Shown here: piece by piece, positions 46,886 through 48,749 of the stretch
Layout of the letters: each line of letters opens with the position of its first letter
Numbering within the stretch: position 1 is the first letter of the stretch
Source of the DNA: a virus
Virus record (IMG/VR): IMGVR_UViG_3300033150_001344
Coordinates: 1 to 48,749 of that record
Reading direction: 5' to 3' (one strand)
DNA length: 48,749 nt
Position numbers and translations under genes: made by a program
Notes under the pieces: generated by a model
Databases searched by the model: none
Seen by the model: only the letters and a program-made list of their open reading frames with translations
Told to the model about the DNA's origin: nothing

Positions 46886-47090
46886 GGAGTATAAAAATAA
46901 ATTAGTTAAGGTTGTTATTAAAGATGGAGATAATATAAAAAGCTACAGAGGAACTTTTTTATCAGTTGATGATAATTTTATTGAGATTAGGTTAGAAAAT
47001 GGTAAGCGTGTAGCTTATAATAGAGAGATTGTAAGCAAGATAAGATTAGATGAGGATGATAATGAGAATGGAAGAAAGAATAGATATTGA
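46878..47090 (+). CDS. Sm-like (LSm) small beta-barrel protein
   Basis: 70 residues from the ATG after AGAGGTGAGTTTG. YKNKLVKVVIKDGDNIKSYRGTFLSVDDNFIEIRLENGKRVAYNREIVSKIRL follows the Sm1 (V.v.lkDG....GtL..vD...e..L) and Sm2 (nre.V.kI) patterns, then an acidic tail. Sm-like proteins bind A/U-rich RNA. Other SH3-like barrels cannot be excluded by eye. Confidence 0.5.
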   Translation: MFEEYKNKLVKVVIKDGDNIKSYRGTFLSVDDNFIEIRLENGKRVAYNREIVSKIRLDEDDNENGRKNRY

Positions 47091-47484
47091 AGGTTGGAAA
47101 GGTAAAGGAGATATATATGTTGGTGAGAGAAAAGATACTTATAGGATTGTTGAGCATCGAAAGAGGAAAGAAACAAATGAGATATATGAAGATGAGCATA
47201 TAATTCCAAAAGAGAATGTTAGAATTCTTTTAAAAATTCTTAAAGATAATTGTGAATTGCAGAGAGAATATAAATATAAATATTTAGTCAGAAAAGTTTT
47301 AGAGTATTATAAATTCCACGAAAAAGAAAACATACCAATAGAGATTATGATAGAGGCATTTAATGGTGGAAAGAATAGAGCAAAATATTACTTCCCATTT
47401 CTTTACTACCCATTAAAAGTTTTAGAAGCACAAGGCAAGATAGCTTATATGGGTCGGGGCGGAATTTTTTTATTGGAGCAGTAA
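47062..47484 (+). CDS. hypothetical protein with winged-helix-like C-terminus
   Basis: 140 residues; several in-frame ATGs exist (47050-47070); 47062 has GAGG at a good distance. The C-terminal half (YLVRKVLEYYKFHEKENIPIEIMIEAFNGGKNRAKYYFPFLYYPLKVLEAQGKIAYMGRGGIFLLEQ) looks like a winged helix ending in the wing. Its final ten residues are repeated at the C-terminus of the next gene's protein in recoded form. Overlaps the Sm-like gene by 29 bases. Confidence 0.55.
   Translation: MRMEERIDIEGWKGKGDIYVGERKDTYRIVEHRKRKETNEIYEDEHIIPKENVRILLKILKDNCELQREYKYKYLVRKVLEYYKFHEKENIPIEIMIEAFNGGKNRAKYYFPFLYYPLKVLEAQGKIAYMGRGGIFLLEQ
47452..47481 (+). repeat. recoded duplicate of the 48164-48193 segment (copy 1)
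   Basis: 30 bases encode GRGGIFLLEQ followed by TAA. The second copy encodes GRGGIMLLEQ. 21 of 30 bases agree; of 9 differences, 6 are silent third positions, one is a silent first position (TTG/CTG) and two fall in the F/M codon. Confidence 0.75.
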
Positions 47485-47485
47485 A

Positions 47486-48199
47486 ATGAAAAATAAAAAA
47501 GAAGTAATTTATAAGAAATATATTAAAGAAAAAAAATCACTTACAGAAATAGGTAAAGAATTGAATCTTTCCCCAGAAACCATTTGGTATCATATTCATA
47601 AATATAATATCCCAATAAGGTCAATTTCTGAATCCTTAAAAATAAAATATAAAAAAGGATTAAAACCTTATTGGAAAGGTAGAAAAAATAAAAAACTTTC
47701 TATATGGTTGAAAAAAGCATATAAATCTGGAAAAGTTAAATTAAATTCTGGTATTTTCAAAAAAGGAGAACACAGGGGAAAATCAACAGAATTTAGAAAA
47801 GGAGACCCAAGACATAAAGACAAAAAATTTCAACAATATAGATTAGAACAATTAAATAAAAAACCAAATAAGTTAGAATTAAAGTTTATAGAAATTATGA
47901 AAGAAAATAATTTGCCTTTTAAATATGTTGGAAATGGAAGTTTGTTAATTGGATATAAAAACCCAGATTTTATATTTAAAAATAAAATCATTGAATTATT
48001 TGGGCATTACCATAAAAATCCTCCTTATTGGCATCAAACAGATAAAGGTTGTATTAAATATTACACTAAATATGGTTATAAAACATTAATAATTTGGTCA
48101 AATAGAATTAGAAATAAGGATATAGAACCAATTGTTAAAAGAGTTAAAAACTTTCTAGAAAATGGTCGAGGAGGTATAATGTTACTGGAACAATGGTAA
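47486..48199 (+). CDS. free-standing homing endonuclease, Vsr/EDxHD-like
   Basis: 237 residues starting one base after the preceding stop. Residues ~5-45 form a helix-turn-helix (KYIKEKKSLTEIGKELNLSPETIWYHIHKYNIPIRS); ~60-125 is a basic NUMOD-like linker (KKGEHRGKSTEFRKGDPRHKDK). Residues ~130-225 are a PD-(D/E)xK-type nuclease: LELKFIEIMKENNLPFKYVG, NPDFIFKNKIIELFGHYHK, YTKYGYKTLIIWSNRIRN. This is the Vsr-related layout of phage homing enzymes. The last residues (GRGGIMLLEQW) are a relic or copy of the preceding gene's 3' end. Confidence 0.75.
   Translation: MKNKKEVIYKKYIKEKKSLTEIGKELNLSPETIWYHIHKYNIPIRSISESLKIKYKKGLKPYWKGRKNKKLSIWLKKAYKSGKVKLNSGIFKKGEHRGKSTEFRKGDPRHKDKKFQQYRLEQLNKKPNKLELKFIEIMKENNLPFKYVGNGSLLIGYKNPDFIFKNKIIELFGHYHKNPPYWHQTDKGCIKYYTKYGYKTLIIWSNRIRNKDIEPIVKRVKNFLENGRGGIMLLEQW
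48164..48193 (+). repeat. recoded duplicate of the 47452-47481 segment (copy 2)
   Basis: Lies at the 3' end of the homing endonuclease gene, in the same reading register as copy 1 has in the preceding gene, followed by TGG TAA. The TGG overlaps the ATG of the next gene. Confidence 0.75.
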
Positions 48200-48324
48200 A
48201 AGCAAAAAGATGTTATTTTTGTGGCAGAGTAATGAGAAAAAAGGTATGCAAGTGTGGAGCTTATGAAGTGGATAAAGGTTATGAACATCTACCTTTAAAA
48301 AAACAACCTTGGTATAAAAAATGA
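48193..48324 (+). CDS. tiny zinc ribbon protein
   Basis: 43 residues: MVKAKRCYFCGRVMRKKVCKCGAYEVDKGYEHLPLKKQPWYKK with C-x2-C and C-x-C, a compact zinc ribbon. Overlaps the homing endonuclease stop and, by ATGA, the next gene. Before the endonuclease arrived it may have followed the 47062 gene directly. Confidence 0.6.
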   Translation: MVKAKRCYFCGRVMRKKVCKCGAYEVDKGYEHLPLKKQPWYKK

Positions 48325-48749
48325 ACCAAATAATAAAAAAGAATAGTATTGCATTTTTTGGAGAGGAATGTAAGAATTGTAGTATGAGAAATGTTTGTTT
48401 AAGCCCAAGTAGAGTGCTTTCAGATAATAGAAGGTTTTTATTAGGGTTGATGGGTTATAAGCAAAAGGCAAATAAGTATATGATAGCAGGAACAAATGCT
48501 CATTTAAAACTACAAAAAGGAATAAAACAATTACACGAATATGGTGTTGTAAATTTTAAAAAAGACCTCATAAAAGGTAAAGAGATAACACTTTGTGAAG
48601 TAGGTATATGCTCACCACTTTATGGTTTTAGAGGTTATGTTGATGAAATGACATTAAAGATGGATTTATTAAAGAAGAAGTTTTATATAAAAATCACAGA
48701 TTATAAGGCAGGTTGGGATTTTAAATCTTACTTAATGCAGTTAGCTTGT
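48321..48749 (+). CDS. Cas4/RecB-like PD-(D/E)xK nuclease, truncated by window edge
   Basis: 143 codons remain open at the last base. N-terminal CKNCSMRNVC (Cys17, Cys20, Cys26) suggests an Fe-S or zinc site. AGTNAHLKLQ holds the conserved His, GFRGYVDEM the active Asp, ITDYKAG the D-x-K motif, and YLMQLAC the QxxxY-like motif of RecB/Cas4-type nucleases. It may act in viral recombination or end processing. There is no CRISPR array or other cas gene here. The C-terminus lies outside the window. Confidence 0.75.
   Translation, partial: MNQIIKKNSIAFFGEECKNCSMRNVCLSPSRVLSDNRRFLLGLMGYKQKANKYMIAGTNAHLKLQKGIKQLHEYGVVNFKKDLIKGKEITLCEVGICSPLYGFRGYVDEMTLKMDLLKKKFYIKITDYKAGWDFKSYLMQLAC

Follow-up and report, generated by a model that had tools for sequence, protein, structure and literature searches.

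A homing-endonuclease-like gene between two synonymously diverged versions of its neighbour's 3′ end in a tailed virus

Two versions of one gene end flank an endonuclease gene

The window analysed here is the whole 48,749-nucleotide stretch of IMG/VR virus record IMGVR_UViG_3300033150_001344, a 48.7-kb contig of a tailed virus in which terminase, portal, capsid, baseplate J and holin genes are present. Close to its right end, an endonuclease gene of 237 codons for amino acids (47486–48199; this and all other window features lie on the plus strand) follows a gene for a small conserved viral protein (47068–47484, in an open reading frame (ORF) open from 47050), hereafter the target gene, and the two genes end in nearly the same peptide. 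The last ten codons of the target gene (copy 1, 47452–47481) read GGT CGG GGC GGA ATT TTT TTA TTG GAG CAG, followed by TAA, and those terminating the endonuclease gene (copy 2, 48164–48193) read GGT CGA GGA GGT ATA ATG TTA CTG GAA CAA, followed by TGG TAA. The copies are identical at 21 of 30 bases. Seven of the nine differences are silent and the other two make up a single F/M change, so the peptides GRGGIFLLEQ and GRGGIMLLEQ share nine of ten residues, in register at both C-termini. Recomputed from the sequence, the positions of the segments, their terminal peptides, the shared frame and the count of silent differences are all as given in a preliminary description of this DNA. The repeat has a sharp left edge, since the 30 bases preceding each copy match at only 9 positions.

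The peptide ends give a local alignment score of 45, the best among 27 mismatched locus pairings being 39. In an ungapped DNA scan of the window with copy 1, copy 2 is the top match outside copy 1 itself (21/30); the DNA match alone would not be decisive, because the next best segment reaches 19/30. In a simulation, nine random substitutions in a 30-mer changed at most one residue in 4 of 100,000 trials, and the differences therefore accrued while the encoded peptide was being conserved. Arginine is written with rare CGN codons in each copy (CGG and CGA account for 1.0% and 2.7% of the Arg codons in this virus), a similarity that favours common DNA ancestry over convergence. Two of nine comparable codons are identical between the copies, versus 62.5% at conserved residues in the rest of the target gene compared with a 72%-identical relative (binomial P = 0.017); unrelated draws from the genome codon usage would be expected to give about 3.7 of nine (P(≤2) = 0.21).

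Two further features of copy 1 concern expression. It includes GGAG, seven bases ahead of the nuclease ATG, and GGAG-like motifs precede 38 of the 58 starts in this virus against a background of 14%, so its third-base pattern may partly serve translation of the nuclease. It also creates a run of seven T (47464–47475, ATTTTTTTATTG), and the nuclease frame, which differs from that of the target gene, is open back to 47444; a frameshift fusion of the target protein and the nuclease is thus conceivable.

The endonuclease and its family

The endonuclease (P0002) consists of an N-terminal helix-turn-helix, a basic linker, a nuclease domain and the appended tail. The predicted helix-turn-helix DNA-binding segment (47486–47605) comprises three modelled N-terminal helices and has a weak match to Pfam HTH_38 (E = 3e-4, under the curated cut-off). 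The single-sequence structure model was poor, and an alignment-based model with 24 family sequences was used, in which the nuclease domain (residues 126–226, 47861–48163) has a predicted local distance difference test score mostly above 80. The top solved structure in the Foldseek search is the catalytic domain of I-Bth0305I (3r3p; E = 5.4e-4, probability 1.00, target template modelling score 0.72), followed by NGO0050 and Vsr (Escherichia coli Vsr, 1vsr, probability 1.00, E = 0.034). Because the modelled C-terminal domain matches the I-Bth0305I catalytic domain best, P0002 is best called, on the evidence of this model, an EDxHD/Vsr-type homing-endonuclease-like protein. Residues E131, D161 and E170 are invariant in the 24 sequences; the histidine region is poorly aligned and not invariant. 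Pfam matches among the 24 are to DUF559 (seven sequences) and Vsr (one).

A single-protein search of viral contigs, genome contigs, phages and plasmids returned no close relatives of the nuclease. Relatives were gathered with the nuclease domain as a query and then by alignments. In about 30 of them the protein stops with the final helix or shortly beyond it; the terminal residues there are unrelated, and the GRGGIMLLEQ tail is absent. The peptide is therefore not a normal possession of the family; the preliminary description had named a tail shared across the family as fatal to its account.

Some of the related loci have peculiarities of their own. In L027 (1131–1198; also in L125), a 68-bp remnant upstream of the nuclease gene matches the 3′ end of a nuclease gene itself, as though a homing gene had inserted at a second one, an arrangement reminiscent of the clusters of WHO elements in yeasts. 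In L008 (3020–5372; also in L007), the nuclease ORF directly precedes an ORF that starts with an apparent C-intein half (ending ...DIISHN) and continues into terminase sequence, which resembles a fractured gene with a split intein. The motif AAATtAAATATTATGAATA occurs three times in L009, before the gene upstream of the nuclease (3104), before the nuclease ORF (3277) and before the downstream gene (4382), and is perhaps a repeated promoter or leader.

An empty-site relative and the probable native junction

The target gene belongs to a compact run that continues with a small zinc-ribbon-like ORF (48193–48324) and a Cas4-like (RecB-type) nuclease gene (48321–48749, cut by the window end), the latter with a weak cas4 NCBIfam match under the cut-off. 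When further relatives were sought for the target gene and for the Cas4-like gene, only L002 and L003 came up. The target proteins of these loci are 72% and 68–69% identical to that of the window, and the Cas4-like gene, which serves as the flanking synteny marker, is 63% and 47% identical at the amino acid level. L002 has the same order of target gene, small ORF and Cas4-like gene, with no nuclease between. With P0002 as the query, and with no positive control, neither the L002 nor the L003 record gave a match. The small ORF has the same overlapping ATG start in the window and in L002 (4411–4551), yet the encoded proteins are unlike; it is absent from L003.

The preliminary description had proposed that related viruses lacking the endonuclease be aligned at the junction, and L002 holds the expected codons there: its target gene ends GGT AGA GGT GGC ATT ATG CTT TTA GAA CAA TGA, running directly into the overlapping ATG of the next gene. 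The encoded GRGGIMLLEQ is identical to the copy 2 peptide at all ten residues. Over the 30 bases, copy 2 matches L002 at 22 positions and copy 1 at 19, and when the 54-base L002 junction is slid along the whole window, copy 2 is the best match (36/54) and copy 1 the second (30/54). The methionine at position six, the GAA CAA codons and the CAATG stop/start overlap are common to L002 and copy 2 only. In the window, copy 2 reads CAA TGG TAA, which adds the extra W at the endonuclease end and overlaps the next ATG at 48193 in the same place as in L002; the target gene of L003 likewise overlaps the next ATG, and copy 1 overlaps no start codon. Because the empty-site end matches copy 2, we take copy 2, with the downstream gene, as best read as the native junction, that is, the remnant of the target gene that now forms the endonuclease C-terminal tail. 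Copy 1 would then be the incoming, synonymously diverged new end. This is the polarity that the preliminary description had suggested.

No conversion tract peculiar to the window is visible upstream of copy 1, the rise in divergence there being seen between L002 and L003 as well.

A counterpart at a 5′ end

Comparison of the ends of the nuclease relatives with their neighbouring genes brought up one further in-register case, L013, and beyond this locus and the window virus no clear gene-end copy was found in the scan of about 30 other relatives. The L013 nuclease starts MNDRINQDDLEILIREAATKIG and the downstream portal gene starts MRNESELRIDDELEVLLRETAMSVSADLALED; portal relatives (L043–L121) start mostly like M...APRDELEILIREATASVEADLALED. 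The nuclease start carries the portal-family motif DELEILIREA, which is found across about 55 relatives. In blastn, L013:246–310, covering the 5′ end of the nuclease gene and the preceding bases, matches the native portal start of the empty-site locus L043 with 74% identity over 77 bp (E = 1.4e-6), and the portal bodies of L013 and L043 are 81% identical. Over codons 16–30 of the L013 portal gene, nucleotide identity to L043 is 53%, with 10 of 15 residues kept and 2 of 10 codons identical; it is about 81% beyond. Our reading is that L013 is a mirror image of the window, in which the native portal start would have become the nuclease N-terminus (first ~20 codons) and a diverged start would have been supplied to the portal gene. 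It is the DNA match to L043 that carries this case.

Three other end-matches were rejected. Those of L006 and L036 lie above their nulls (38 vs 29 and 37 vs 30, respectively) and are out of register with the gene ends. The NKLKEVK match of L034 reflects a repeated leader of another gene, in another frame, and is no gene-end copy: a perfect 23-bp repeat (1465–1487 and 2780–2802) is shared by the 3′ end of the nuclease gene and the ribosome-binding leader of a capsid-like gene, and the copy in the nuclease gene possibly serves the next gene.

Proposed route of insertion and its alternatives

We consider it probable that the 3′ end of the target gene was the insertion site of a free-standing EDxHD/Vsr-type homing endonuclease gene, which brought with it a donor-derived version of the last codons. 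In a virus without the nuclease gene, the enzyme would cleave the native target gene near its end, at the GGT CGA GGA GGT segment or immediately upstream of it; by analogy with the published systems, the cut is expected at the native-allele codons that correspond to 48164 or directly ahead of them. Repair would copy the donor gene end together with the nuclease gene, with the body of the target gene as the left arm; the right arm would consist of the native 3′ fragment (copy 2) and the DNA that follows it. Since the donated codons are synonymous, the chimeric target gene would keep its function, and it would stop presenting the native site. The old 3′ fragment, parted from the left half of the site, would be read in frame as the nuclease tail. 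Purposeful recoding is not required for this, because a diverged donor allele would look alike and the codon identity of 2/9 is not significantly below the random 3.7; copy 1 may simply be such an allele. The anatomy and polarity put forward in the preliminary description are largely supported, and its cleavage logic, including resistance of copy 1 and the direction of transfer, is something we infer.

Several points weigh against this explanation. The case in the window rests on just 30 bp, or ten residues, the excess of synonymous divergence is modest (P = 0.017), and the pattern occurs in only 2 of about 30 family members. L002 is distant (72% amino acid identity), so the distinction between native and donated ends hangs on few positions (22/30 vs 19/30, M vs F), and synonymous divergence from L002 rises generally over the last 40 codons, the L002–L003 pair included. 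A donor allele carrying the copy 1 end was not found. As for L013, its low 5′ identity is the most extreme of 12 comparable pairs and not unique, L053–L059 being close, and its end-match score is barely above the null (44 vs 42).

The alternative that survives best, though we regard it as rather unlikely, is that the donor and recipient ends are both passengers, left behind when a diverged donor took part in ordinary homing or in one-sided illegitimate joining. The silent differences would then be ortholog divergence with no role in cleavage resistance. That the codons differ no more than unrelated codon-usage draws agrees with this, and the insertion by itself would leave copy 2 without the left half of any site. 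On the other hand, allelic differences do give resistance in WHO elements of like anatomy (PMC7282813), and copy 1 would need some resistance if the site lay wholly within the last 30–50 bp.

A scenario is improbable in which the target 3′ end was partly duplicated in tandem and later drifted, and the nuclease gene entered or was trapped between the copies by a route other than homing. A short direct repeat in register and the lack of a known donor speak for it. However, a tail under no constraint would be expected to lose the peptide, and copy 2, although only an enzyme tail, still encodes the exact native GRGGIMLLEQ, so duplication followed by drift, which the preliminary description had offered as its alternative, is disfavoured. 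Retention of at least nine residues after nine random changes (4e-5 of trials), the placement of the nuclease exactly between the copies and the second, opposite-end case within the same nuclease family (L013) also argue against it, and a duplication without the nuclease gene is not seen in L002 or L003. That the peptide is the normal conserved tail of the nuclease family, unrelated to the neighbour, is refuted within the available members by their differing ends and has next to no probability left.

We suggest tentatively, at somewhat less than even confidence, that a class of end-replacing homing genes exists in tailed viruses, with 3′ and mirror 5′ forms. Such genes would travel with a synonymously diverged end of an important neighbour as both rescue and immunity, in the manner of a natural home-and-rescue drive, and would keep the old gene end of the host within the nuclease. 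If so, the gene-end replacement of fungal mitochondria and yeast nuclei would recur in prokaryotic viruses, at either gene end and by means of an unrelated nuclease. This would explain how free-standing homing genes can target conserved coding ends without harm to the gene. Odd C- or N-terminal tails of such nucleases could be read as insertion-site fossils, and exact cleavage sites could be predicted.

Comparison with known systems

The predicted catalytic fold is that of EDxHD (Vsr-like) homing endonucleases such as I-Bth0305I. I-Bth0305I is intron-encoded, whereas the viral gene is free-standing and has a host-derived tail. In being a free-standing viral homing gene between genes, it resembles the Seg and Mob endonucleases of T4-like phages, which spread by repair with co-conversion and differ in being GIY-YIG or HNH nucleases; in the portion of the review drawn on here (PMC2988022), no duplicated or replaced gene ends were found. 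A literature search for a phage case of replaced gene ends found none, and what is new, within the literature searched, is that the element sits in a virus, that the remnant has been captured in frame and that a 5′ form exists.

The pattern itself is already known in biology, from WHO elements of yeasts and from mobile ORFs of fungal mitochondria. Among the latter, those with carboxy-terminal duplications occur in Allomyces atp6 and in Glomus atp6, atp9, cox2 and nad3, and in Glomus mitochondria the inserted C-termini lie upstream of the mobile ORFs and the native ones downstream, with largely synonymous differences, according to the part of PMC3630166 consulted. As there, the inserted end in the window is near-synonymous (9/10 residues) and the native copy is nearer to the empty-site relative (22/30 vs 19/30). 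In contrast to this virus, those elements reside in organelle genomes; the same part of PMC3630166 reports a LAGLIDADG nuclease for the atp6 element and inserted ends of 51 to ~240 bp, and mentions no 5′-end form.

In WHO elements, described at FBA1 of Torulaspora and Lachancea yeasts (eLife 2020, PMC7282813), the nuclease gene is flanked on one side by a chimeric, resistant target gene and on the other by a piece of that gene's former 3′ end, and resistance stems from allelic differences, as shown experimentally. The window has the same layout: the nuclease gene is preceded by the proposed donated 3′ end and followed by the native 3′ fragment. As in WHO elements, the target would remain functional, and protein splicing is not involved. 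The WHO nuclease is, however, LAGLIDADG and HO-like, unlike the EDxHD/Vsr-type fold predicted here, and WHO elements reside in the nuclear genomes of yeasts, where they form tandem clusters and have longer 3′ segments. In the tailed virus the segment is 30 bp, and the remnant is fused in frame to the nuclease. Cleavage and resistance, demonstrated for WHO elements, are presumed here. Thus, the viral element would work like a WHO element or a fungal mobile ORF and, because its nuclease type and setting differ, belongs to neither group.
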